From Chloroflexota bacterium (GTDB lineage Bacteria > Chloroflexota > Dehalococcoidia > Lucifugimonadales > UBA2985), in NCBI GenBank assembly GCA_028877205.1, contig JAPPHY010000001.1, positions 1-40,734 of the forward strand: a stretch of 40,734 nucleotides of DNA, in the 5' to 3' direction. Below are positions 6,085 through 19,085 of the stretch, in pieces. Under the pieces are notes generated by a model. The model was not told the origin of the DNA, ran no database searches, and saw only the letters and a list, made by a program, of their open reading frames with translations. Positions within the stretch are counted from its first letter, which is position 1. The number at the start of each line of letters is the position of its first letter. The position numbers were made by a program, and so were the translations under genes.

Positions 6085-7140
6085 CTAGAACTGCTGCAGG
6101 AAGCGCAGGTCGTTGCCGTAGAAGAGGCGTATGTCGTCGATGCCGTACTTGAGCATGGCGATGCGCTCCACGCCCATTCCGAACGCGAAGCCGGTATAGC
6201 GCGAGGAGTCGTAGCCGACGCCCTCCAACACGGTGGGGTTGACCATGCCAGCGCCTAGAATCTCGATCCAGCCAGTGCCCTTGCACACGTTACAGCCGCC
6301 GCCCTTGCACACGAAGCAGTCGATGGCCATCTCCGCTCCCGGCTCCACGAACGGAAAGAAGTCCACGCGGAAGCGTACCTTGCGCTCGCTGCCGAATATA
6401 AGGCGGGCGAACTCGTAGAGTGTGCCCTTCATGTCGGCGAAGGTGATTCCCTCGTCAACGGCCAGTCCCTCCACCTGGTAGAAGTGCCACTCGTGGGTGG
6501 CGTCGGTGGCCTCGTAGCGGTAGCACTTGCCGGGCACAACCACTCGCACGGGCGGCTCGGCGTTTTGCATGGTGCGTACCTGCATCGGCGAGGTGTGCGT
6601 GCGGAGGAGCATCGGTCGCTCGCCCTGGGCGTCCACGTGGTCTATCCAGAGGGTGTCCCACATATCCCGCGCGGGGTGGTCCTTGGGGATGTTGAGCATC
6701 TCGAAGTTGTAGTAGTCCCACTCGACCTCTGGCCCTTCGACGACCTGGAAGCCCATCGAGGCGAATGCGTCGCAGATCTCGCGCACCATCTGGGTGGTGG
6801 GATGGAGGCGGCCGACTGGCACGTGCCTGCCGGGGAGCGTGACGTCGATGCGGCCTTCCTCTGCGATGGCCTGCAGCCGCCCGAGCCTGACGTTCTCTTC
6901 GGCACCGGCCAGTCGCTCTTCCAGCACGGCCTTCACGCGGTTGGCGGCGGCGCCGGCAGTGCGGCGCTCGTCCGGGGCCAGTGATGAGAGGCCGCGCAGC
7001 ACCTGTGTGAGCCTGCCGCGGCGGCCGAGGTACGCGACGCGCCACTGCTCGATCGCCTCGGACGAGGCGGCCTGCTCCAGCTCGCGCAGTGCGGAGGCCT
7101 GAAGCTCTTCGAGATCGGTTGGCGTTGGGTTGCTGGTCAT
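6085..7140 (-). CDS. pheS: Phenylalanine--tRNA ligase alpha subunit
   Basis: A 351-residue catalytic alpha chain of PheRS. It has the N-terminal coiled coil (about 1-90), then the class II core with LHPTTQMVREI and HTSPMQVRTM (motif 2 region), the Cys pairs CFVCKGGGCNVC in the insertion, and motif 3 GMGVERIAMLKY near the C-terminus. ATG 7138-7140 (MTSNPTPTDLEEL) is chosen because a further upstream start would run into the promoter. A decayed copy of this 5' end and leader is found at 16147-16227. It forms the pheST unit with pheT. Confidence 0.97.
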   Translation of the reverse strand: MTSNPTPTDLEELQASALRELEQAASSEAIEQWRVAYLGRRGRLTQVLRGLSSLAPDERRTAGAAANRVKAVLEERLAGAEENVRLGRLQAIAEEGRIDVTLPGRHVPVGRLHPTTQMVREICDAFASMGFQVVEGPEVEWDYYNFEMLNIPKDHPARDMWDTLWIDHVDAQGERPMLLRTHTSPMQVRTMQNAEPPVRVVVPGKCYRYEATDATHEWHFYQVEGLAVDEGITFADMKGTLYEFARLIFGSERKVRFRVDFFPFVEPGAEMAIDCFVCKGGGCNVCKGTGWIEILGAGMVNPTVLEGVGYDSSRYTGFAFGMGVERIAMLKYGIDDIRLFYGNDLRFLQQF

Positions 7141-7173
7141 GGCGCGGCTGATGGGCGTGTTCGGGCGGTTGAC

Positions 7174-7203
7174 ATTATAGGTACGGGAGCGGCGGCCGGT
7201 CAA
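7174..7203 (-). promoter_or_regulatory. pheST promoter
   Basis: Minus strand TTGACC (7198-7203), an 18-base spacer, then a perfect TATAAT (7174-7179). The -10 ends 33 bases before the pheS ATG. There is no sign of a T-box or attenuator in the short leader. Confidence 0.75.
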
Positions 7204-7985: not shown

Positions 7986-8039
7986 CGCAGCGCTGAGCCG
8001 AGGCGACTTCGTTTCGCACAGCATTAACAACTCAAGAGT

Positions 8040-8180
8040 TTGGCGTGGGCGCCCGCAAGGGCCTAACAGAGGAAGCCGGTGAGAGGCCGGCGCTGTCCCG
8101 CAACTGTATGCCGGAGAACACGGGAGTCCGGCGAGCCAGGTCCACTACCCCCGCCAGTGTCGCTCGGCCTTCGAGGAAAG
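8040..8180 (+). ncRNA. Adenosylcobalamin (B12) riboswitch
   Basis: The diagnostic core runs AGAGGAAGCCGGTGAGA, then CCGGCGCTGTCCCGCAACTG, then GGGAGTCCGGCGAGCCAGG, the order and spacing of the cobalamin aptamer including the B12 box region. It lies between its own promoter and an intrinsic terminator, upstream of the S-component and DUF4430 genes. B12 binding would therefore be expected to cause premature termination (an OFF switch). Confidence 0.9.
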
Positions 8181-8208
8181 GCGCAGGCATAGGATGATGC
8201 TTTGACAT

Positions 8209-8234
8209 ACCTGCCCGCCTTGGGCAGGTTTTTT
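8209..8234 (+). terminator. Riboswitch-controlled intrinsic terminator
   Basis: ACCTGCCC (8209-8216) pairs with GGGCAGGT (8222-8229) around a 5-base loop, followed directly by a run of T. It ends ~74 bases before the next start codon, the usual layout for an expression platform. Confidence 0.85.
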
Positions 8235-8307
8235 GTTGCCATCAAACCTGCTCCTCCTCGCCAGACCGCGCGCGACTTTTGAAGTCAAACTGAAGAGGAG
8301 GCAGCAC

Positions 8308-8949
8308 ATGAGTTACGCGGCAGGGGTATCTTATCGGGAAAGAGGGCAGTGGGCAGGCGTGCCCGTCGGGGCGCTGGGGCGGGAGCTTGTCCTGCCCGCA
8401 GGCTTCATTCTGGCCATTCTGGCGTCCAACTACGCCCTGGCTTCCCAGCCCAACGTCAAGCTGTTCGACCTGCTGGTGTTCGCGGCGGGGTTTACACTGG
8501 GCCTCCGGCGTGGCACGCTGGTAGCCGCGGGCGCGTGGCTGGTCTATGGTACGTTCAACCCTTGGGGCGCAGCTGGCCCGCTGCTGCTGGCCACCTTGAT
8601 GGCGTCCGAATGCGTGTACGCGCTCGCGGGCGCTGGGCTACGTTTGATCGTCTCACCTGGGCGGCTGTCCGTTCTGCCGGGGCGATGGAGCCTGCTGCTG
8701 GCCGCCGCGGCACTGGTCACCACACTTGCCTACGACGCCGTGACCAACGTCTACACGGGCATCGTCTGGGCGCAGATGACCGGCGGGTTGGAGTACAAGC
8801 GATGGATCCTGACCGCGCTCTTCAACCCGGGTGCATTGCTCTTCGGGGCCTACCACGTGGGCAGCAACGTCGTTTTCTTCGGCCTGTTCGGGACCGCCGT
8901 GATAAAGGGCGCCGAGAGGATCAAGATGGCTCTGGGTGAGGAGGCATAG
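8308..8949 (+). CDS. ECF-type transporter substrate-binding (S) component, predicted corrinoid uptake
   Basis: A 213-residue membrane protein with about six hydrophobic segments (residues ~28-45, 52-70, 75-95, 97-115, 130-150, 172-205) and no ATPase or coupling domain. This matches S components of ECF vitamin transporters. ATG 8308 has a good AGAGGAGG ribosome site. The gene is the first one behind the B12 riboswitch, and the next gene encodes a transcobalamin-like lipoprotein, so the cargo is most likely cobalamin or a precursor. No EcfA/EcfT genes are present in the window, so shared energising modules elsewhere would be required (group II ECF). Substrate is inference from regulation and neighbourhood. 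Confidence 0.75.
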   Translation: MSYAAGVSYRERGQWAGVPVGALGRELVLPAGFILAILASNYALASQPNVKLFDLLVFAAGFTLGLRRGTLVAAGAWLVYGTFNPWGAAGPLLLATLMASECVYALAGAGLRLIVSPGRLSVLPGRWSLLLAAAALVTTLAYDAVTNVYTGIVWAQMTGGLEYKRWILTALFNPGALLFGAYHVGSNVVFFGLFGTAVIKGAERIKMALGEEA

Positions 8950-8953
8950 CTCG

Positions 8954-9433
8954 ATGAAACTGCGATGGCTTTCAACCTGCCTTCTGTCCGCGATAGTCCT
9001 GGTGTCCGCTGTCATAGCTGGGTGCGGATCGGTCGACGTAGAGGTCGGTCAGGCAACGCCGACGGCGACGCCACTGCCGACCATCCAGGTCAGCCTGCTG
9101 ATTCACGTCAGCGAGGACGACGCGCGCTGGTTCCGCGACTTCGAGGTTCTGAAGGGCACCAACGCATACGAGCTCACGGAGCAGGCGACCGAGGGCAATC
9201 TGGAGTCGACCTACTACGCGTCCTTCTTCGCCCACTTCGTGGAGTCCATTGTTGGCGTGCCCAACGAGGGCGACAACTACTGGCTCATATTCCAGTGGAA
9301 CGGCTCCGCGGAGCAGTGGGAGCCGCTGCCGGTGGGCGCAGACCTGTTCTCGCTGAAGGACAGCCATGTGCTGGCGTGGTCATATACGGACACGAGTCTG
9401 GACCCGCAGCCGTTGCCGTCTGTGAAACCTTAA
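8954..9433 (+). CDS. DUF4430 (transcobalamin-like C-terminal domain) lipoprotein
   Basis: A 159-residue secreted lipoprotein. The signal peptide ends in lipobox VIAGC (Cys24), followed by a short Thr/Pro linker (ATPTATPLPT). A single domain follows, with YELTEQAT, NYWLIFQWNG and VGADLFSLKDSHVLAWSY, matching DUF4430, which is related to the C-terminal domain of eukaryotic transcobalamin and intrinsic factor. It starts 4 bases after the S-component stop with AGGAGG upstream, so it is in the same B12-controlled operon. The proposed role is capturing corrinoids outside the cell and passing them to the S component. Confidence 0.8.
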   Translation: MKLRWLSTCLLSAIVLVSAVIAGCGSVDVEVGQATPTATPLPTIQVSLLIHVSEDDARWFRDFEVLKGTNAYELTEQATEGNLESTYYASFFAHFVESIVGVPNEGDNYWLIFQWNGSAEQWEPLPVGADLFSLKDSHVLAWSYTDTSLDPQPLPSVKP

Positions 9434-9486
9434 ATGGAAACGATAGTCTGAAGGCGGTGGGAGAAGTGAGACAGGAGGAACCCTTG

Positions 9487-10002
9487 ATGGACATCCTGGT
9501 CGCTGAGGCGTCAATCGAACAGAAACCGGTTCTCTATCGTCTCATGCAGCTGTATCTTCACGACACATCTGAGTTCACAGGTGACGACGCCAATGTAGAC
9601 GGGGTATTCGCGTACCGGTACTTCGATGAGTATTGGCGCGAGCCAGACAGGTTTCCGTTCCTGATTCACAGCGGCGGTAGTCTGGCCGGATTCGTACTTG
9701 TTAACTCCCACACAGTGCTCCTGGATCAACGGGCTGGAAGGTCAATAGCGGAGTTCTTCGTCATGCGCAAGTACCGGAGGCAGGGAGTCGGCAGGCGCGC
9801 CGCCTTCTACACCTTTGAGGGGTTCCCGGGGCAATGGGAGGTACGGGAGCACGACAAGAATCTGGCAGGTCAGAGTTTCTGGAGAAGTGTCATCGGGGAA
9901 TACACGGGCGGGGAGTATTCAGAGGCAATCCTGAATGATCACAGCTGGGTAGGGCCAATCCAGACGTTTGACAACTCGCGCGGGAACCAAGTTCAAGCAT
10001 AA
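9487..10002 (+). CDS. GNAT family N-acetyltransferase
   Basis: A 171-residue cytoplasmic acetyltransferase. The acetyl-CoA pyrophosphate-binding motif is RRQGVGRRA within FFVMRKYRRQGVGRR, followed by the alpha3/beta5 part EVREHDKNLAGQSFWR. ATG 9487 follows a strong ACAGGAGGAA ribosome site; the longer upstream frame is a shadow of the DUF4430 gene. Its TAA overlaps the next ATG by one base (TAATG), so the two acetyltransferases are coupled. It may be cotranscribed with the B12 operon 53 bases upstream. The substrate is unknown. Confidence 0.85.
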   Translation: MDILVAEASIEQKPVLYRLMQLYLHDTSEFTGDDANVDGVFAYRYFDEYWREPDRFPFLIHSGGSLAGFVLVNSHTVLLDQRAGRSIAEFFVMRKYRRQGVGRRAAFYTFEGFPGQWEVREHDKNLAGQSFWRSVIGEYTGGEYSEAILNDHSWVGPIQTFDNSRGNQVQA

Positions 10003-10676
10003 TGGTCACGCCAAAACTCCTGCTGGAAACCTCATACGTCCTTAGCGACTCGGGTCGAATCCTGAGCACCAGAGAACCGATACCACGCACCGGGCCGCGG
10101 TTTGTGCTACAACGAAGTAGTTCGGATTGCGTCTGGGCGTTTCGCAGCGACGTCCCTGACGAGCTTGCAGCAGCAATTGGTCGCCTCGCGCAAGATGAGC
10201 CGCCGGCCAAAGACCTCAGGGATGCACCAATCCACGCAGTGAAGTATCTGTCGCTTCTGGGAGGTCGGGTTGACTGGGGACCGACCTTCTTGTTCCCCCC
10301 TGAGACTGAGAGCCAACATGAGGATGTCGTTCCTATTGATGAATTGAGCCTTCTGCAGCGCAACTTCTCTGGTTGGACCGCGGCAGAAATTCCACATCGA
10401 CTTCCAATCATGGCAATTATTCAGGATGGACATGCGGTGAGCGTCTGCTTTAGCGCCAGGCGAACTCCGGTAGCTGCGGAGGCTGGCCTGGAGACTGCCG
10501 CTGCGTTTCGCGGGCGCGGCTTTGGCCCACGAGTCACCGCTGCATGGGCGGACGTCATACGCTCGTTAGGACTGATACCGCTATACAGCACCTCTTGGGA
10601 CAACTCGGCCTCGCTGTCGGTTGCCCGCAAGTTGAGACTTTTGGAAGCGACTAGCGATTGGAGCCTAGTAGATTAA
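10002..10676 (+). CDS. Second GNAT-like acetyltransferase
   Basis: A 224-residue protein. The C-terminal half carries a GNAT core: VCFSARRTPVAAEAGLETAAAFRGRGFG with motif RGRGFG for acetyl-CoA, then LYSTSWDNSASLSVARKL, typical of FR47/GNAT enzymes. The N-terminal ~110 residues are not recognisable and may be a degenerate GNAT or substrate domain. It is translationally coupled to the preceding acetyltransferase. Its composition is less GC-rich than the flanking core genes. Substrate unknown. Confidence 0.75.
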   Translation: MVTPKLLLETSYVLSDSGRILSTREPIPRTGPRFVLQRSSSDCVWAFRSDVPDELAAAIGRLAQDEPPAKDLRDAPIHAVKYLSLLGGRVDWGPTFLFPPETESQHEDVVPIDELSLLQRNFSGWTAAEIPHRLPIMAIIQDGHAVSVCFSARRTPVAAEAGLETAAAFRGRGFGPRVTAAWADVIRSLGLIPLYSTSWDNSASLSVARKLRLLEATSDWSLVD

Positions 10677-10696
10677 GCGGCACTGTCCATCGGTTA

Positions 10697-10726
10697 TTGG
10701 TTATGCTCGCAGATGCGTGGTATTCT
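10697..10726 (+). promoter_or_regulatory. Promoter for the S51 peptidase
   Basis: TTGGTT (10697-10702), an 18-base spacer and TATTCT (10721-10726), about 50 bases upstream of the ATG. Confidence 0.45.
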
Positions 10727-10775
10727 CAGTTGGCGTCCCACAAACCGGTAGGCCGGCCTGCGAAAGGGAGAGATC

Positions 10776-11477
10776 ATGCAAGGGAAGCACATTGTCGCCT
10801 TCGGAGGAGCCAGGCCTGTCAGTACAGGAATGCACCCGCTCTACAGCTACGTTCTGTCTCTGGCCGGAAAGGACCGCCCCAAGGTATGCTGCATTCCAAC
10901 CGCCACGGGAGACGCTCCGGCCGGTCTTGTGCGTTTCTACACCAACTTCCCATCCTCCGCGTGCGAGCCCTCTCATCTGGCGCTGTTCGGTCGAACGGTG
11001 CGTGACATTCGAGAATACCTGCTCAGCCAGGACGTCGTCTTCGTACCCGGCGGCAATACGGCAAACCTGCTGGCGGTCTGGCGCGTCCACGGAGTCGACG
11101 TGGCGTTGCGTGACGCTTGGGAAGCTGGCGTAGTGCTGTGCGGAGGGAGCGCGGGTTCCCTCTGCTGGTTCGAGTGCGGGACCACCGACTCATTCGACCT
11201 GAACGAGCTCAAGCCTCTGCACGATGGGTTGGGGTTTCTCTCGGGCTCCCACTGTCCCCACTACGACGGCGAGGCGCAGCGCCGGCCACTCTACCACGGC
11301 CTGATTTCAGAGGGGTTCCCTGCGGGATATGCGATCGACGATGACGCTGCGATCCACTTCGAGGGCACCGAGCTGTCCGAGGTGGTCAGCGCGAGAGCAG
11401 CAGCAACGGCGTACCGAGTCGAGCTATCGGGCGGACAGGTGGTGGAGACGCCCCTCGACGCGCGGTCGCTATACTAG
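10776..11477 (+). CDS. Peptidase S51 family (peptidase E-like) protein
   Basis: A 233-residue cytoplasmic protein of the dipeptidase E/cyanophycinase family. The nucleophile elbow GGSAGS has Ser125, preceded by FVPGGNTANLL. GSHCPHYDGE supplies His159 or His162 as the likely catalytic histidine. The size fits aspartyl dipeptidase E-like enzymes rather than secreted cyanophycinase, and there is no signal peptide. AAGGGAG lies upstream of ATG 10776. The last 11 codons (VETPLDARSLY) and the bases after the stop are repeated in diverged form at 12310-12351, behind the HAD gene. Confidence 0.88.
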   Translation: MQGKHIVAFGGARPVSTGMHPLYSYVLSLAGKDRPKVCCIPTATGDAPAGLVRFYTNFPSSACEPSHLALFGRTVRDIREYLLSQDVVFVPGGNTANLLAVWRVHGVDVALRDAWEAGVVLCGGSAGSLCWFECGTTDSFDLNELKPLHDGLGFLSGSHCPHYDGEAQRRPLYHGLISEGFPAGYAIDDDAAIHFEGTELSEVVSARAAATAYRVELSGGQVVETPLDARSLY

Positions 11478-11483
11478 CCGGCC
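11442..11483 (+). repeat. S51 tail, upstream copy of a direct repeat
   Basis: The last codons of the S51 gene plus six bases after the stop. It matches 12310-12351 at 34 of 42 positions without gaps, by my count. Confidence 0.75.
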
Positions 11484-11567
11484 TGATGCCCTGGAAGGTC
11501 GCCGCAGGTTCGCAGCAACTACAGAATGTCGTGTGAATCGGATTCCGGGAACTTGGCGTGATAGGAC

Positions 11568-12314
11568 ATGATCGACAGCCTGAGTGAGAGGCCCCTTGCG
11601 TTGTTCATTGATGACGGCGGGGTAATGAACGACAACAATCTCCGAGCGCCGGAGTGGCGTCGATTGATCGGGGAGTTCATGCCTTCCCGGATGGGTGGTA
11701 CGGCCGAGCAGTGGGCAAGCGCCAACCAGGCAGTCTTTCCGGTAATCTGGCAGCACATGCTACAGAGATTTCACACGTTCGCCAGCCACCAGGCATTCTA
11801 CAGAACCTACGCCATCGGTTGGATAAGTGAAATGTGCTCGTACCTTGGCGTGGCGGTACCGCCGGAAGAAGATGCCATAACCCTGTACAGCGAACTCGCT
11901 GTCTATGTGGGCAAACGAGAAGACTGCTCGATTGAGGGCGCGGCAAGTGCGGTGGATTCCCTGCACGACAGCGGATACAGGCTCTTCACTGCTTCAGGAA
12001 CGGCATCCTGGGAACTGCGAGCCATCACTGCAAGAATGGGTCTGGCTGAGACATTCCTGGAGTTGTATGGTCCAGACCTGATTGACCATGTCAAGTTTGG
12101 TACCGAGTACTATGAAGGGATCTTTGCCCATTCCGGGGTTCAGCCGAAAGACGCCCTTGTGATCGAGAGCGATAAGGAGTGCTGCCGCTGGGCGATCGAA
12201 TCGGGAGCCAACGCAGTCTGGATAGACCCCCGGGGAAGAGGAGACGCAACCAGCTTGGCAGCAATTGCTCATGCCTTACTCTGGTCCAAGCAACAGGGGA
12301 GCAGCAGGAGTTGA
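11568..12314 (+). CDS. HAD-superfamily hydrolase
   Basis: A 248-residue HAD phosphatase/dehalogenase-like protein. Motif I is FIDDGGV (nucleophile Asp15); the second Asp of the usual DxD is replaced by Gly17, as in the DxGGV/DxGNV subgroup. Motif II is FTASGTAS, motif III the lysine in DHVKFGT, and motif IV VIESDKE. An alpha-helical cap is likely between residues ~25 and 105. No strong ribosome site precedes ATG 11568. The TGA stop (12312-12314) lies inside the remnant S51 tail, so the gene appears to have been placed by recombination between an S51 gene and its duplicate. Less GC-rich than its neighbours. Confidence 0.8.
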   Translation: MIDSLSERPLALFIDDGGVMNDNNLRAPEWRRLIGEFMPSRMGGTAEQWASANQAVFPVIWQHMLQRFHTFASHQAFYRTYAIGWISEMCSYLGVAVPPEEDAITLYSELAVYVGKREDCSIEGAASAVDSLHDSGYRLFTASGTASWELRAITARMGLAETFLELYGPDLIDHVKFGTEYYEGIFAHSGVQPKDALVIESDKECCRWAIESGANAVWIDPRGRGDATSLAAIAHALLWSKQQGSSRS

Positions 12315-12351
12315 GACCCCTCTTGACGCGCGGCCGCTGAAGTAGCCGGCC
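12310..12351 (+). pseudogene. Remnant of a second S51 gene 3' end
   Basis: The frame reads VETPLDARPLK and stops, against VETPLDARSLY in the intact gene. Of eight differences to 11442-11483, five are silent third-base changes, so this was once a coding copy under selection and not a recent target duplication. The stop codon of the HAD gene is provided by bases of this remnant in another frame. Confidence 0.7.
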
Positions 12352-12402
12352 CTTGTTGGCCAAGCGTCGAGACGTCAGGTCGTGGTAGTCGCTCCACCGG
12401 AC

Positions 12403-12432
12403 TTGCCTTGCCCAAGGCCAATCCCCCATAAT
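12403..12432 (+). promoter_or_regulatory. Promoter for the M20 peptidase
   Basis: TTGCCT (12403-12408), an 18-base spacer and CATAAT (12427-12432), ~50 bases upstream of the start codon. Confidence 0.45.
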
Positions 12433-12482
12433 CGACAGCGCACGCGAAATCCGAGCCACATCCGCACTTGGAGGCCCTGCCG

Positions 12483-13841
12483 ATGCCGACTCTCGATGAA
12501 CTGCTAGCCCAGGTCGATGCCGCGCGCGACGACATCGTCAAGCTCAACCAGGACCTCGTCCGCATCCCGTCCGTCAACACCGGCTTCATGCCCACGGGCA
12601 ACGAGACCGCCGTCTGCGAATACATCCGCGACTGGCTGGCCGCGGAAGGCGTGGACAGCGAGACCCTGGAGTCCGCGCCTGGCAGGGGGAACATCATCGC
12701 TAGCCTGAAGGGACGCTCCGGCGCGCCGGGCCTCATGTTCATGGCCCATCTCGACGTTGTCCCGGTCGAGGATGAGTCCAAGTGGACCTATCCGCCCTTC
12801 AGCGCCACCATCGCCAATGGCAGGATCTACGGCCGCGGAGCCTCCGACTGCAAGGCGCTTCTCACCGCCCAGCTCATGGCGAGCCGCATCCTACTACGCA
12901 ACTCAGTGGAGCTGAAGGACAATCTGCTGCTCTCGTTCTCCGCGGACGAGGAGAGCGGCGGCTGGTACGGCGTCGGCTGGCTCGCTGAGCACCATCCGGA
13001 GAAGATCGCGGCCCCCTACGCCGTCAACGAAGGCGGCGGTCAGCCCGCCGACGCCGCGGGCAACCTGGCGTACATCATCAACCTGGGTGAGAAGGGCCGC
13101 GTTCAGATCGAGATCGAGGTCAAGGGCGAAAGCGCCCACGCCTCCGTTCCCTGGAGGGGCACCAACGCGCTGTACAGGGCGGCGCAGGTGCTTGAACGGA
13201 TCGAGAGCTACGAGCCGGAGCGCGACACGTCCGCCGAAATCTTCCGCCACCTCTCGAAGTTCGCAATCGAGGAGGTGCCCTCGCCCGAGAACATCGACTC
13301 GATCGTCGATGATCTGGAGACCCGAGACCCCGCGATGGCTACGACCCTTCGGGCCCTGTCACGCATGACGCTCGCTGCCACCGTGATCCAGGGCGGCATC
13401 AAATCCAACAGTGTGCCAGAGACGGTCAACATCACCTGCGACTCCCGCATCCTCCCGCACCAGGACGATGAGTACGTTCGCGGCGAGCTGACCCGTCTCC
13501 TCGACGGCATTCCGGGCGTCAGCTTCGACCTGGACTACACGGCCATTTCCAACGCCTCTTCAGCCGACACGGAGTTCATGACGCATATCCAGAACGTCAC
13601 CGAGTACGTCCTCGACGGCCGGTCGATTGAGTGGGTGCCCGGCCTGTGCGTGGGCGTCACTGACTCCCGCTTCACGAGGCCCCTAGGCGTGGTCACATAC
13701 GGCTTCGATGGCTCCGACCCCGAGGACAACCCGCTGGAGAGCAACATCCATGCCACCAACGAGTCCGTCAGCATCCGCACCCTGGTCACGAGCACCAAGA
13801 TCATGCTCGCCTTGGCATACGAGATGCTGGCGGTGAAGTGA
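12483..13841 (+). CDS. M20 family metallopeptidase (ArgE/DapE/carboxypeptidase type)
   Basis: A 452-residue di-zinc amidohydrolase/peptidase. Metal ligands and catalytic residues are all present: His89 in MAHLD, Asp122 in GASDCK, the catalytic Glu156 and ligand Glu157 in DEESGG, Glu183 in NEGGG, and His423 in NIHATNES. A dimerisation domain occupies roughly residues 195-320 (GESAHASVPWRGTNA). ATG 12483 is chosen over an upstream TTG because GGAGG lies at proper spacing. No signal peptide, so it is cytoplasmic. The exact substrate (N-acyl amino acid, succinyl-diaminopimelate or dipeptide) cannot be fixed from sequence. Confidence 0.9.
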   Translation: MPTLDELLAQVDAARDDIVKLNQDLVRIPSVNTGFMPTGNETAVCEYIRDWLAAEGVDSETLESAPGRGNIIASLKGRSGAPGLMFMAHLDVVPVEDESKWTYPPFSATIANGRIYGRGASDCKALLTAQLMASRILLRNSVELKDNLLLSFSADEESGGWYGVGWLAEHHPEKIAAPYAVNEGGGQPADAAGNLAYIINLGEKGRVQIEIEVKGESAHASVPWRGTNALYRAAQVLERIESYEPERDTSAEIFRHLSKFAIEEVPSPENIDSIVDDLETRDPAMATTLRALSRMTLAATVIQGGIKSNSVPETVNITCDSRILPHQDDEYVRGELTRLLDGIPGVSFDLDYTAISNASSADTEFMTHIQNVTEYVLDGRSIEWVPGLCVGVTDSRFTRPLGVVTYGFDGSDPEDNPLESNIHATNESVSIRTLVTSTKIMLALAYEMLAVK

Positions 13842-14076
13842 TTGGTGCATTGGGCGCACTGCCTCTTTCTCACCAGTGAACGCCGGAATCCAGAGAAGGG
13901 TTCGTGTTGGAGGGCATAGCCGCGCAAGCAATCGGTCTACGAAAGCGGTAGAGAGTGGTGAGATCGCATCAATGACTCTGAGCAATGCACCGAAGGATAT
14001 TGCTCTAAGCGTGGGAAAGTGCTTGAATTAGCAAAGTGATCTGCTTGACCCAGGTACATGAGGGAGCAGTGCGTTT
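13842..14076. other. Intergenic region, nothing convincing
   Basis: No gene, RNA or clear promoter is seen. A segment near 13873-13897 containing CGCCGGAATCCAGAGAAG resembles interspersed repeats known from related metagenomic genomes, but no second copy occurs in the window. Confidence 0.4.
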
Positions 14077-16137
14077 ATGAGTCCACGATCATTAGTGTCA
14101 CTGCTCGCGTTGGCCCTCATTACTGTGGTGGCATGTGAGCTGTCATCCCCGCCCACGCCGAAGGCCACGGTGACGCCTACCCCGGTTCCAACTCCCACCC
14201 TCACGCCCACACCCACGAGCCCGCCGCCTACACCCACGCCCACGGCCATGCCAACGGCCGTACCCGTACCGACTCCGCATCCCACGAACACCCCTGAGCC
14301 ATTGCCAACTGCGACTCGCACTCCAAGGCCCTCGTTACCTCCCACTCCGACCTCCACCATTGCGCCTACCGATTCTCCCGCACCAACGCCAACAATTGTG
14401 CCTACCAGCACTCCAACACCTACGCCGGCTCCTACGCCCACGCCTACACCTACGCCCATTCCTGTGGAGCTTCACGTCTCTCCCGTGTCGCCCACGGCGA
14501 TGGACATCAGTTGGTCTCTGGGCATTCAGGATGCCGCGGAGCTCTCACTGTACCGGGACGGAGAGCTGCTGTCCACGCTATCGGCGGCAGACGGGTCGAT
14601 GCAGGACACGGAGCTTAGCCCCAACACCCGATATGCATACAGGCTCGTCGCCAGCCGCCCGAGTGACGCAACTGTCGCGGGCGAGAAGTCAGTAGCTACC
14701 TTGGCGTACCCCCCCAGGATTGTCATGCAGATGGCTACCCATTGGACGGGATTTCAGCAGCCCATAATCGACGAGCTCAACCCGGACTACACGGAGTACC
14801 GCGTGATTCTAACCCAATACGGTCAGTCCGTTCCTGTGGCAGACGTGGCGGACTCCGGCTGGAGCACCAGCAGGTGCCGGAAGCTGGACGGCCTTGAACC
14901 CAGGCAGTCCTTTATCGTCTCAGTAACTGCGCGTAATCTGGACGGAATTGAGACGGAGCCGGCAAGGCTGATCGAGGGCTCCCCCTTTGACCATCACCCC
15001 GTTGCTCGTACCAGAATTGACCCAGCCAACGAGAGCCAGTGGGCCAGAGATAGGGTTCGTGACGTGGTACGCCTATACGGCCTAACGGAAGCCGCCGAGG
15101 AGTGGATGAACAATGACATTCGCATTGAGCGGATCCCGAGCGAGCCCGGATATGCAGGAGCTCGCTGGGGTAGTCCCACTATCGGACACAGTTACCCCGG
15201 TACTATCATGCACGAGACAATGCATGTATTCTGGCACTTCTGGGACGGGTTTCCCGAGCCGTGCGACAAAATGAACCTATACACCTTCAGGCGAGACGTG
15301 GCACAATTCCCCATCGACGTCCGGAAGTGGTATCACTCCGACTTCAGCGAGCCCTTTCCCTTTGTGTCCGAGTCTTGGCGCCTGTACTACAATATGATGG
15401 TAGGCATGCTCGAACGGGCAGCCCCGGAAGGCGAAGATATTTGGGACATCCTGGAGCGTGAAGAGTACGGAAGACTATGGTGGGGATTCTATCACACCAT
15501 GGAGACCAATATCCCTCTACAGGCTCCGCAGAAACTGTCCCTCTTCCCCCCGACGATACAGAAGTACTTCCAGGGGTTCATGGAGCCCGGGGAAGACACC
15601 TCTTGGGACCAGCAGATTTTCTGGTACTCGCGGCTCGCCGAGGAAGACCAGATCCTGGCCCACCCCTACGTCTCCCACGAAATCACCCACTTCACGCGGG
15701 AATCGATTGCGGATCCCGGGCACCCGAGGACCAGACTGCCTGAGCCGCTAAGGACGTACTTGAGGGAAGCCGACAGGCAGTTGGTCGTAGATTTCATAAA
15801 CACGCTGGAAGTCATTGAGCCTTGGGACTGGACTAAATGGTTTCTGTACCGCCATTCAAGATGGCACATCTACCGCGCGCACGTTTACGGGGCAGAGCTT
15901 GGCCCGGAAGTGGGTATAGAGCTGAGCGAAGAGAATCTCCAGGCAGTCCTGACGGCACTGGATGCCCTGTACGATCATCACTGCCGCCCCAAGGAAATTC
16001 GAAATTGCGGGTTCGACCGCCACTCGATTAGCTGGACAAGCCAGGATGATGTGCGGGAGATCATCGGAGGGCTGGAGGCTCTTACCGAGAAACAGCGCAG
16101 GGTACTCCTCGAGTTGGTCATGCTGGAGCGTGGTTAG
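14077..16137 (+). CDS. Secreted lipoprotein with Pro/Thr stalk, Fn3-like domains and an HExxH domain
   Basis: A 686-residue protein. The signal peptide ends in ITVVAC with lipid-anchor Cys20. Residues ~25-128 are a Pro/Thr-rich stalk (repeated TPTP units, a low-complexity tract in the DNA at 14155-14460). Two fibronectin-III-like domains follow (~128-212 and ~215-310), then a C-terminal domain with MHETMHVFWHFW, an HExxH zinc motif (His379, Glu380, His383). Glu432 in VSESW or His387 could be the third ligand. This suggests a cell-surface metallopeptidase on a flexible stalk. The family within the zincins is not recognised, and activity is inference from the motif. A GGGAG ribosome site lies 10 bases before the ATG. 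Confidence 0.8.
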   Translation: MSPRSLVSLLALALITVVACELSSPPTPKATVTPTPVPTPTLTPTPTSPPPTPTPTAMPTAVPVPTPHPTNTPEPLPTATRTPRPSLPPTPTSTIAPTDSPAPTPTIVPTSTPTPTPAPTPTPTPTPIPVELHVSPVSPTAMDISWSLGIQDAAELSLYRDGELLSTLSAADGSMQDTELSPNTRYAYRLVASRPSDATVAGEKSVATLAYPPRIVMQMATHWTGFQQPIIDELNPDYTEYRVILTQYGQSVPVADVADSGWSTSRCRKLDGLEPRQSFIVSVTARNLDGIETEPARLIEGSPFDHHPVARTRIDPANESQWARDRVRDVVRLYGLTEAAEEWMNNDIRIERIPSEPGYAGARWGSPTIGHSYPGTIMHETMHVFWHFWDGFPEPCDKMNLYTFRRDVAQFPIDVRKWYHSDFSEPFPFVSESWRLYYNMMVGMLERAAPEGEDIWDILEREEYGRLWWGFYHTMETNIPLQAPQKLSLFPPTIQKYFQGFMEPGEDTSWDQQIFWYSRLAEEDQILAHPYVSHEITHFTRESIADPGHPRTRLPEPLRTYLREADRQLVVDFINTLEVIEPWDWTKWFLYRHSRWHIYRAHVYGAELGPEVGIELSEENLQAVLTALDALYDHHCRPKEIRNCGFDRHSISWTSQDDVREIIGGLEALTEKQRRVLLELVMLERG

Positions 16138-16146
16138 CTGCGGCAA

Positions 16147-16227
16147 AGCTCGCGCAGGGCGAAAGCCTACAGCTCTTCGAGGGCGGTTGGCGTTGGGTTG
16201 CTGGTCATGGCGCGGCTGCTGGGCGTG
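16147..16227 (-). pseudogene. Decayed copy of the pheS 5' end and leader
   Basis: By my count 73 of 81 bases match 7079-7159, including an unbroken run of 35. On the minus strand it starts MTSNPTPT like pheS, but codon 14 is TAG (16167-16169) where pheS has CAG, and homology stops soon after. The match also includes the bases just upstream of the pheS ATG. It lies between the HExxH lipoprotein and the ATPase-TOPRIM pair. Confidence 0.85.
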
Positions 16228-16233
16228 GCGGCG

Positions 16234-16263
16234 TTGTACTGTAGCGGCTGCCGCTTGTATACT
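16234..16263 (+). promoter_or_regulatory. Promoter for the ATPase-TOPRIM pair
   Basis: TTGTAC (16234-16239), an 18-base spacer and TATACT (16258-16263). It abuts the end of the pheS fragment, on the opposite strand to the ancestral pheS promoter. Confidence 0.5.
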
Positions 16264-16332
16264 ATTGTTGAGTACCCTCCGAAGCGGCTAACCGCTGGAG
16301 AGATTCGCCACCAAGCCCAAGTGGAGATGGCT

Positions 16333-17514
16333 ATGGACGTCGAGACAAGGACACAAACGCCGGAGACGGAGAGCGAAGGCGACCGCGGTCTGCACTACCC
16401 CGATCTGAAGATCGCGAGCTTCCGCGGAATCAAGGAGTTGCACATACCACGCCTTGGCCGCGTGAACCTGATCACGGGCAAGAACAATACAGGGAAGTCA
16501 TCAGTGCTTGAGGCTCTCCGTCTACACGCTCAGAACGGCTCGCCACAAACGATAGGCGACATACTCGCGTTTCGTGAAGAATTACCTAGCAATACAGAGC
16601 GAAGGGAGCCGACTGCGGATCTCAACGGCACAAGTCCAGTTTCTGCACTCTTTCATGGATTCCCCCTACTTTGGGAGGAACCCGTACCGATTGCAATATC
16701 GACCAACATCTACGCGCGGTCCTCGGAGCTAGGGATTCGAATGGGGCGGTTCGTTGAAGAAGTAGAAGAAGATGGCGCTCGCAGGTTGATCGAACTGAAG
16801 GAGGATTACGACCCCGAATCCGAACACTTGGTGGCCTTAATTGTAGAGACCGAGGAGGGAGCAAAGCCGCCAATTAGGCTCGAGAGGCTCCGTCCCTCTC
16901 GAGCAAGCGGTAGTCTGTCTCCGGCAAGGCTGTTGACCGCACCTAGAACTGCGTGTGTGTTTGTAAGTCCATACAGCGCAGAGCGAACTGATGCACTCGC
17001 GCGGCTGTGGGACGCAGTCGCTCTGACGGAAGACGAGAACCAAGTCGTGGAGGCCCTGCGCATTATCGAACCGGGGATATCTGCTGTAACCATGGTAGGC
17101 GACGACGGATATCGCGCGTCGAGGAGGGCCATGACGCGACTCAAGGGGATGCTGCGGCCTGTGCCTCTGCGTTCGCTCGGGGACGGCGTCAATCGGCTGT
17201 TTTCGATTGCGCTTTCGCTGGTCAACGCGAAGGGTGGCATCCTCCTGATCGACGAGTTTGAGAACGGTTTGCACTACACCGCGCAGCCGGATGTCTGGCG
17301 GATGATCTTCGAGCTTGCGGGCAGTTTGGACGTGCAGGTCTTCGCCACCACTCACAGCTCGGACACAGTTAAGGGCTTCCAACAAGCGGCTGCCGAATCC
17401 CCGGAAGAGGGTATGCTTCTGCGCCTAGTTCGCGCTAATGACATTACGCATGCTACCTTGGCAAACGAGGATGACTTGGAGATCGTGACCCGTGGCGGGA
17501 TAGAGGTGCGGTAA
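16333..17514 (+). CDS. AAA/ABC-type ATPase of the OLD/RecF-SMC-like class (putative defense ATPase)
   Basis: A ~393-residue protein. Walker A is GKNNTGKS (residues 49-56). A signature-like RSLGDGVNRLFSIALSL precedes Walker B ILLIDEFENGLH (Asp307, Glu308), and the H-loop THSSD has His341. This is the AAA_15/AAA_21 architecture of OLD-family, PARIS AriA and Gabija-type ATPases. I start at ATG 16333 (MDVETRTQ), which has GGAG six bases upstream; ATG 16327 is possible. The next gene begins one base after its stop and encodes a TOPRIM-type protein, so the two look like a split OLD nuclease. Less GC-rich than core genes. Likely cytoplasmic, sensing phage or foreign DNA, by family analogy. Confidence 0.8.
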   Translation: MDVETRTQTPETESEGDRGLHYPDLKIASFRGIKELHIPRLGRVNLITGKNNTGKSSVLEALRLHAQNGSPQTIGDILAFREELPSNTERREPTADLNGTSPVSALFHGFPLLWEEPVPIAISTNIYARSSELGIRMGRFVEEVEEDGARRLIELKEDYDPESEHLVALIVETEEGAKPPIRLERLRPSRASGSLSPARLLTAPRTACVFVSPYSAERTDALARLWDAVALTEDENQVVEALRIIEPGISAVTMVGDDGYRASRRAMTRLKGMLRPVPLRSLGDGVNRLFSIALSLVNAKGGILLIDEFENGLHYTAQPDVWRMIFELAGSLDVQVFATTHSSDTVKGFQQAAAESPEEGMLLRLVRANDITHATLANEDDLEIVTRGGIEVR

Positions 17515-17515
17515 C

Positions 17516-18142
17516 GTGGTCCGCCGAGGGATACTGCTTGTGGAGGGCCCCGACGACCAGCACGTATTGAGAAACATCTGCGAGAGACGAGGGATTCTAC
17601 AGCCCGACGAAATCCGTGATTGCGGTGGCTACCCACAACTGATCAGAAGTCTTCCAAATCAGCTCCGGTTCGGGGATCCAAGTGATGCTTACGGAGTCAT
17701 TGTGGACGCAGACACAGACTTGGCTTCTCGTTGGCAGTCTGTGCGCGATAGGTTGCGGGTTGCCGGATACGATGAGTTGCCAGCCGTAACTGACCCTGCC
17801 GGTACCGTCATTGAGCCTCCACAGGATTCGATTCTGCCGCGTGCCGGTGTCTGGATTATGCCAAACAATCAGTCTCCGGGGGCGCTGGAGAATTTACTGC
17901 GCGTCATGATTCCCGATGGTGATGAATTGCTTAGCCATGCGCAAGCCTGCCTAGACTCGCTTGCCGCTCCGCCATTCCGAGAAGCTGATAAGCTCAAGGC
18001 CTTGATGCACACCTGGCTCGCGTGGCAGAAACAGCCGGGTAGGCCGTACGGAACCTCAATCGGATACGGGTTCCTCAATGCTAGTGTGCCTCAGGTGGAC
18101 GGGCTGGTCGCTTGGTTGGGGCGACTTATTGCTGATCCGTAG
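17516..18142 (+). CDS. TOPRIM-like nuclease partner (DUF3226-like)
   Basis: A 208-residue protein. LLVEGPDDQHVLRNI places Glu10 like the TOPRIM catalytic Glu. VIVDADTD supplies Asp64, Asp66 and Asp68, the DxD metal site, and IMPNNQSPGALENLL is characteristic of the DUF3226/OLD-TOPRIM group. GTG 17516-17518 lies one base after the ATPase TAA with GAGGTG upstream, so the pair is tightly coupled. In OLD, Gabija and PARIS the TOPRIM part cleaves nucleic acid when released or activated by the ATPase; the same is proposed here. Not identical in design to any named system I can confirm. Confidence 0.75.
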   Translation: MVRRGILLVEGPDDQHVLRNICERRGILQPDEIRDCGGYPQLIRSLPNQLRFGDPSDAYGVIVDADTDLASRWQSVRDRLRVAGYDELPAVTDPAGTVIEPPQDSILPRAGVWIMPNNQSPGALENLLRVMIPDGDELLSHAQACLDSLAAPPFREADKLKALMHTWLAWQKQPGRPYGTSIGYGFLNASVPQVDGLVAWLGRLIADP

Positions 18143-18293
18143 TTTTAATGTCGCCCGGTCGGTCACCAGACTCTTCCTCTAGATGGTTCAACTTTCTGCC
18201 TTTGTATCTCCACGTCTGACAGAAAAGTCACGACCTCTACATTTCTGACGGTCTATACTTGGGACTGGCACCACTGTGGTTCAGGAGGGGACA

Positions 18294-18665
18294 ATGAGGC
18301 TCATTCGACTGGGGATTGTTGGGCTGGCGTTGTTGGCCGCGTCTGCTTGCTCGCAGCAGGCCACGGACGAGGAATTAAGGGATATGGTTAGAGAAGAAGT
18401 AATGGCCGCGATTGCTGAAGTAAAGCAAGGTCCTCCCGGGGAGCAAGGCCCTCCACCGTCCGAAGAAGCGCTAAGTCAGCTGATCCAAGAGGTAGTGATA
18501 GACCTTAGGGAAGAGCTACGTGGACCCCAAGGGCCGCAGGGTACACAAGGGCCTCAGGGGATTCAGGGAAGGCAGGGTGAACCGGGAACAGCCGAGTTAT
18601 CCGGCAGAGACAGGGCGGCTCTCAGTAGGGTAGATTCCCTTTCGCGTGACCTAGACACATTGTGA
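18294..18665 (+). CDS. Collagen-like repeat lipoprotein, N-terminal part before an in-frame TGA
   Basis: 123 residues from ATG 18294 (AGGAGGGG upstream) to TGA 18663-18665. The signal peptide ends in AASAC (Cys19). A helical segment follows, then short Gly-X-Y runs (GPPGEQGPP and GPQGPQGTQGPQG), and finally a heptad-like segment SRVDSLSRDLDTL. After the TGA the same frame continues for 80 codons with another coiled-coil pattern, so the product is probably truncated relative to its ancestor. Likely an extracellular, trimer-forming surface protein. Function unknown. Confidence 0.75.
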   Translation: MRLIRLGIVGLALLAASACSQQATDEELRDMVREEVMAAIAEVKQGPPGEQGPPPSEEALSQLIQEVVIDLREELRGPQGPQGTQGPQGIQGRQGEPGTAELSGRDRAALSRVDSLSRDLDTL

Positions 18666-18908
18666 AGGGAAGTGGAGTGCGAATCTGGAGGAACCGCCCT
18701 TTGCTCAAGTTCTCTTCATGGACTATTCACTGAGGGCACTCTCAGCAGTCGCATCACCACCGTGAAGAACGATCTAGCCACATTGCAGCAGGAAGTGGAG
18801 CTCCACGGATTCTTCGGTTTCCGCCTTCTGAGCTTAGAGAATGACCTGGAGGACATCCGGACGGCGTTGAGGCAGCTTCAAGGATATGCCCACACCCATT
18901 CGTACTGA
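18666..18908 (+). pseudogene. C-terminal part of the collagen-like lipoprotein, after an in-frame TGA
   Basis: In the same frame as the preceding gene, the sequence after TGA continues REVECESGG, passes a possible Cys-Cys loop (CESGGTALC) and ends in a second coiled coil (RITTVKNDLATLQQEVEL, LENDLEDIRTALRQLQ) before a genuine stop. The heptad pattern is preserved across the TGA, so this is most simply a recent nonsense mutation. Readthrough cannot be excluded. No good start codon or ribosome site exists for independent translation. Confidence 0.65.
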
Positions 18909-19015
18909 TGGAAGGCGCTGGGTCTATCCCCGTGACGGCTACCGCCTGCCCGCTGAGACGTAGCTCTGGTCAGCAAGTCGGTTGCTCGCGGATGAAACAG
19001 TGTACCCCCCAGCCA

Positions 19016-19044
19016 TTGACCTTGCGGCCCGTGCGTCTTAAGAT
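19016..19044 (+). promoter_or_regulatory. Promoter of the glycine cleavage operon
   Basis: TTGACC (19016-19021), a 17-base spacer and TAAGAT (19039-19044), ~42 bases before the gcvT ATG. No glycine riboswitch aptamer is seen in this short leader. Confidence 0.6.
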
Positions 19045-19085
19045 GGAAGTGACGGGTTAACGAATTCCATCGCTCACGCTTGCAC

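Follow-up and report, generated by a model that had tools for sequence, protein, structure and literature searches.

An ABC/OLD-type ATPase and a DUF3226 TOPRIM protein encoded side by side in a Chloroflexota genome belong to the phage-defence candidate PDC-M38

The gene pair and its family

The window analysed is a stretch of 40,734 nucleotides of a Chloroflexota bacterium genome (contig JAPPHY010000001.1 of assembly GCA_028877205.1). Its forward strand carries two intact genes separated by one base, a stop codon and a change of frame. The first (16333-17514, ATG start at 16333 and TAA ending at 17514) encodes an ABC/OLD-type ATPase of 393 residues, and the second (17516-18142, GTG start at 17516 and TAG ending at 18142) encodes a DUF3226 TOPRIM nuclease-like protein of 208 residues. 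A preliminary description of this DNA had read the locus as an OLD/RecF-like ATPase gene followed one base later by a gene for a protein with TOPRIM-type Glu and DxD residues, and had suggested PADLOC and Pfam searches as a check. The gene positions proved exact and the searches returned matches for both proteins. The ATPase matched the Pfam families AAA_21 (E = 4.6e-22) and AAA_15 (E = 7.5e-22), its scores against AAA_15 and AAA_21 (78.9 and 79.9 bits) being over the respective cut-offs of 32.1 and 27. The TOPRIM protein matched DUF3226 over residues 6-205 of 208 (E = 5.6e-60; 203 bits, cut-off 27).

The best PADLOC model was PDC-M38A for the ATPase (E = 1e-89, 300 bits) and PDC-M38B for the TOPRIM protein (E = 1.1e-45), both over full length. 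As these are the top models of the two proteins, the pair belongs to the PADLOC-DB 2.0 phage-defence candidate PDC-M38, which is likewise composed of adjacent A and B genes and from which we found no difference. The ATPase also matched the models for AbiLi (E = 1.4e-57, 194 bits) and AriA (E = 7e-27). The PADLOC PDC candidates were identified in a guilt-by-embedding screen, and experimental tests are still awaited for the majority (PMC12988326). PDC-M38 is therefore already listed as a computational candidate, to which the present pair adds a member. Of the earlier suggestion that this is an uncharacterised defence system, the defence role is supported by the profile matches, folds, obligate pairing and genomic context described here, although the system is not wholly unlisted.

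The pair lies in a lineage-specific insertion

The two genes are carried by an insertion of about 9.6 kb (9434-19079), flanked by a lipoprotein gene (8951-9430) on one side and gcvT (19080) on the other. In two related genera (L173 and L174) a homologue of this lipoprotein gene directly precedes gcvT, so the empty site is seen there and the accessory nature of the patch, proposed earlier, is borne out. The GC3 values of the ATPase and TOPRIM genes are 0.64 and 0.59, compared with 0.82-0.87 for the gcv genes and others nearby. The dead pheS fragment noted previously lies on the reverse strand shortly before the ATPase gene; it is an 81-bp sequence (16147-16227) that is 90% identical to an internal piece (7079-7159) of the intact pheS gene (6085-7203). 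This repeat within the insertion was reported as a direct duplication of 7079-7159.

Downstream of the pair is a collagen-like lipoprotein frame (18276-18665) with an in-frame stop at 18663-18665, the same frame resuming at 18672-18908, and gcvT-gcvH-gcvP follow. The immediate neighbours of the pair encode S51 and M20 peptidases, HAD- and GNAT-like proteins and lipoproteins. These are non-defence genes, which counts against a defence role. No other recognised defence gene was found in the 9.6-kb insertion.

Conserved motifs of the ATPase

Conservation was counted in an alignment of 109 ATPases and 113 TOPRIM proteins from many phyla. All of the motifs given here and in the next section are encoded on the forward strand. 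The Walker A motif of the ATPase, GKNNTGKS (residues 49-56; 16477-16500), contains K55, which is present in 107/107 non-gapped sequences. An ABC signature-like motif, SLGDGVNR (residues 281-288; 17173-17196), has G283 and G285, both found in all 109 proteins. The Walker B motif plus D-loop, ILLIDEFENGLH (residues 303-314; 17239-17274), has the core LLIDE, in which D307 is conserved in 108/109 and E308 in 109/109 sequences, and it ends with H314 (104/109). The H-loop, ATTHS (residues 338-342; 17344-17358), contains the invariant H341 (109/109). The preliminary reading of intact Walker A, Walker B and H-loop motifs was thus accurate, and these motifs are near-invariant across the family.

The ATPase ends with an IEVR tail (residues 390-393; 17500-17511) in which E391 is conserved in 107 and R393 in all of the 109 sequences. 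The near-invariance of this E-x-R end suggests that it makes a functional contact, for which the TOPRIM protein is a possible partner. The structural model of the ATPase (pLDDT 83.5) matched the heads of SMC, Rad50, PtuA, retron PtuA, GajA and AriA with Z scores of 17-19.

The TOPRIM protein has an OLD-type fold and a putative two-metal active site

The TOPRIM protein carries an EGPDD motif (17543-17557) with E10, invariant in 110/110 sequences, and D14 (104/110, plus four with Glu). The DxD motif, D64-A-D66 (17705-17713), has D64 in 113/113 sequences, whereas position 66 is Asp in 101, Asn in 10 and Glu in 2. Lack of DxD conservation had been named beforehand as grounds for discarding the defence proposal and was not found, although the presence of Asn or Glu in place of D66 in about 11% of members does weigh against a defence reading. 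Two further residues are E125 of a GxLE motif (17888-17890; Glu in 112/113) and K161 (17996-17998; Lys in 103 and Arg in 8 of 113), which lies in the C-terminal helical part of the protein (helix 156-169).

In OLD nucleases metal A is bound by E400, D455 and D457 and metal B by E404, T506 and E508, with K562 of the helical domain assisting (PMC7049728; numbering of Bp OLD). By analogy, E10 and D14 are consistent with the metal A residue E400 and the metal B residue E404, since the spacing is the same and the structural alignment opens by pairing residue 3 of the model with residue 393 of 6nk8. D64 and D66 appear analogous to D455 and D457. From position and conservation, E125 is a candidate metal B ligand and counterpart of E508, and K161 is a candidate counterpart of K562.

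The AlphaFold2 model of the TOPRIM protein (pLDDT 94.3) had as its best structural match PH0156 (PDB 2p62), an uncharacterised archaeal protein, with a Z score of 11.1 over 186 residues; PH0156 also matched weakly in a profile comparison (E = 0.015). Class 2 OLD proteins (6nk8/6njx) matched through their C-terminal TOPRIM regions with Z scores of 9-10, followed by Ts OLD (8.5), retron Eco2 (7.3) and GajA (7.0). The match to AriB (Z 6.3) was weak, scoring no higher than unrelated Rossmann folds that the search also listed. On the model, the protein has the OLD-type TOPRIM fold and catalytic set (Glu, DxD, metal B acids and a basic residue) and is a predicted nuclease, with residue equivalence beyond the N-terminus assigned by deduction.

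Linkage, distribution and mobility

Pairing was surveyed in loci L002-L121. The ATPase gene, or its remains, lay directly upstream of the DUF3226 gene in 110 of the 110 loci that had enough upstream sequence, and the intergenic gap was mostly -4 to +3 nucleotides. Pairwise distance matrices of the two proteins were correlated (r = 0.76 over 102 loci; the maximum in 1000 permutations was 0.18), a co-variation that partly reflects shared inheritance. The split-OLD arrangement proposed at the outset therefore has the support of the profile matches, the folds and the obligate pairing.

A scan of GTDB contigs gave at least 538 relatives, of which 80 from many phyla were kept. DUF3226 was present in 28 of 400 genomes of the same phylum (about 7%) and 35 of 250 genomes of the same order (about 14%), and was absent from the 4 further genomes of the same family examined. 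A DUF3226 protein is also present in M. jannaschii, which we counted against the defence reading. No tblastn match was found among phage records (INPHARED) with two different queries, and complete E. coli genomes gave no match to the pair of a Citrobacter plasmid. Plasmid copies include those on a 4.07-kb Klebsiella plasmid, a 6.4-kb Citrobacter plasmid and several Acinetobacter plasmids; some of these plasmids carry little besides replication or mobilisation genes and the pair, with no Hma gene nearby. Copies on viral contigs and one megaplasmid copy adjoin baseplate, tail-fibre, tail or integrase genes.

The presence of copies on tiny plasmids, in some cases next to a BrnTA toxin-antitoxin pair, could reflect a plasmid-stabilising module selected for addiction, in which the TOPRIM protein would be constitutively toxic and the ATPase its antitoxin. 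Neutralisation of TOPRIM_OLD toxins by AAA ATPases is known from experiment, including that of an RloB-type pair (PMC10440598). However, an intact TOPRIM gene was found beside a broken ATPase gene in three independent loci (L002, L008, which is the same as L099, and L032), and only the ATPase was intact in seven loci, with metagenome-assembled genomes and assembly errors a caveat to these observations. The survival of intact TOPRIM genes next to damaged ATPase genes gives no indication that losing the ATPase is lethal. Moreover, deletion of either gene of PARIS is non-toxic (PMC9122126). We regard the toxin-antitoxin explanation as unlikely. Note that a decayed copy was seen in an Acidobacteria metagenome-assembled genome (L085, 4903-6600), where the ATPase sequence is missing from just past Walker A onwards and what is left is joined in frame to the start of the TOPRIM gene, itself truncated.

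Some relatives of the pair are embedded in Hma and other defence loci

The closest relative (L037, about 50% identity), from an uncultured Dehalococcoidia, was the sister of the window's pair in a quick tree. There, HmaA precedes the pair and HmaB and HmaC come after it, Hma being a predicted helicase-methylase-ATPase defence system (PMC8565338). The same Hma locus contains a second OLD/AriA-like ATPase gene (710 aa; 6520-8649 of L037) directly upstream of the pair. In another locus (L061) the pair sits between HmaA and HmaB and the gene ends overlap, and HmaB lies downstream of the pair, with an overlap or a short gap, in L044, L054, L058, L061, L062 and L078. In total, HmaA or HmaB genes lie within 10 kb of the closest relative and of about nine other copies, some of which overlap HmaB by 4 bases.

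We compared the three closest genes on either flank of the pair in 20 loci with 20 distant control regions, largely from the same genomes, at a threshold of 1e-15. The neighbours matched 133 PADLOC families, including HmaA/B, AriA, HEC-01A, MzaC, NsnA/B and methylases, whereas the controls matched 39, mostly kinase and Fic models; the numbers refer to HMM families, not to systems, and redundant models inflate them, which makes the comparison qualitative. Many copies of the pair have no recognised defence neighbour. Confinement of homologues to core metabolic contexts, another finding that would have told against the defence proposal, was not observed, as homologues occur in Hma and other defence neighbourhoods.

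Such embedding raises the question of whether the pair is an accessory module that acts only with Hma, or guards it, rather than a stand-alone system. The nearby Hma genes of L037 and of some nine further copies would fit this explanation, but most copies, including those of the window and the plasmids, have no Hma nearby. HmaA, HmaB and HmaC are all absent from the neighbouring genes in the window, so the locus itself is not an Hma member. In its own genome only a weak HmaB-like (methyltransferase) match was found, an 838-residue open frame on another contig (C18, 6896-8602; L177, L178) far from the pair. Dependence on Hma therefore seems quite unlikely.

A role of the pair in DNA repair or chromosome maintenance, as a RecF/Rad50-like ATPase plus nuclease with no defence function, was also considered. 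In fold, the ATPase comes nearest to Rad50/SMC heads, and the archaeal OLD protein Cran1 acts in cell-cycle progression (PMC12796447). These points notwithstanding, the patchy spread, the carriage on plasmids and prophages, the insertion at a site that is empty in related genera and the location within Hma operons misfit a housekeeping function, making this explanation very unlikely.

Relation to known systems

The pair had been said to resemble PARIS and Gabija in parts, and the ATPase fold is indeed like those of AriA and GajA, although the locus belongs to neither system. PARIS likewise has a separate ABC ATPase and TOPRIM protein in one operon, and the match of the ATPase fold to AriA has a Z score of 16.9. 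However, PARIS is defined by an ATPase (AAA_15/AAA_21) with a DUF4435 partner or fusion (PMC9122126). A Pfam scan at E ≤ 1 found full-length DUF3226 and no DUF4435 in the TOPRIM partner, as the preliminary description had anticipated, and PARIS identity was rejected. The ATPase also differs in length, with 393 residues versus 464 for the solved AriA chains.

AbiL is likewise a two-gene system of an ATPase and a TOPRIM-like effector, in which the AAA protein neutralises the TOPRIM toxin (PMC10440598), and the AbiLi match of the ATPase spans positions 4-340 of the 340-position model. In contrast, the effector of AbiL is RloB whereas that of this pair is DUF3226, and the ATPase scores higher against PDC-M38A than against AbiLi (300 versus 194 bits). 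Since neither the RloB Pfam family nor the AbiLii model matched at E ≤ 1, AbiL identity was also rejected.

Class 1 and class 2 OLD nucleases and Gabija (GajA/GajB) share the combination of an ABC ATPase plus TOPRIM. Among OLD proteins, the class 2 C-terminal regions are the closest to the TOPRIM fold and share the positions of the Glu, the acid four residues later, the DxD, the second Glu and the helical Lys (PMC7049728). The present pair consists of two proteins rather than a single chain, and there is no UvrD/PcrA/Rep-like helicase gene of the GajB type immediately downstream. Hence, the locus is neither Gabija nor a class 2 OLD nuclease.

A proposed mechanism

We favour reading the two genes as an anti-phage system of the PDC-M38 family, an OLD nuclease split into two proteins that would act as an ATPase-gated nuclease, and put its probability at roughly 0.7. 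In the literature library searched, no paper naming DUF3226 or PDC-M38 and no experimental work on the family was found, so the defence assignment is by association. Its observed basis is the gene pair with intact motifs, obligate linkage and co-variation, the OLD-type fold, mobility and the defence-operon context of relatives.

We infer complex formation, ATP gating, an infection trigger and an abortive outcome. Given the conserved ABC dimer motifs, the obligate pairing and the two-metal site, the pair probably works like PARIS, Gabija and AbiL, with an ATPase sensor-gate over a suicidal two-metal nuclease. The ABC-type ATPase would dimerise or oligomerise with ATP, bind the small TOPRIM protein and keep it off its substrate while doubling as the infection sensor. 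In PARIS, an AriA ring holds AriB until an anti-restriction protein triggers its release and cleavage of tRNA-Lys (PMC11455837, PMC12409363). Here, a phage product or infection state may similarly alter the ATPase, so that the TOPRIM protein is set free or activated. It would then cut nucleic acid by means of a two-metal site composed of E10/D64/D66 and D14/E125, with K161 helping, and thereby stop the cell before phage release. The three loci in which the TOPRIM gene is intact but the ATPase is broken, if not assembly errors, point to PARIS-like gating rather than to an orphan TOPRIM protein of strong toxicity. As to the substrate, we lean slightly towards DNA over tRNA (the AriB target) because the closest folds are DNA-cutting OLD domains, although the two-gene analogy points to tRNA.

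A more speculative extension, which we consider doubtful, is that DUF3226 pairs form a distinct and widespread class of split OLD-type abortive-infection systems guarding large restriction-like systems such as Hma. The ATPase would sense phage inhibition of the guarded system and free a TOPRIM nuclease having its own target. The Hma embedding of relatives provides a direct hypothesis for the pair and, together with the conserved catalytic set and the obligate ATPase partner, makes clear and inexpensive tests possible. Testing the pair would show whether the PARIS logic of a second-line guard applies generally.

A neighbouring cobalamin riboswitch

Beside the insertion, a cobalamin riboswitch (Rfam) precedes a predicted membrane protein gene (8233-8949) and the small lipoprotein gene at 8951-9430, the whole region spanning 8029-9430. 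Both genes are kept upstream of gcvT in related genera, and the region is possibly a B12 uptake unit.
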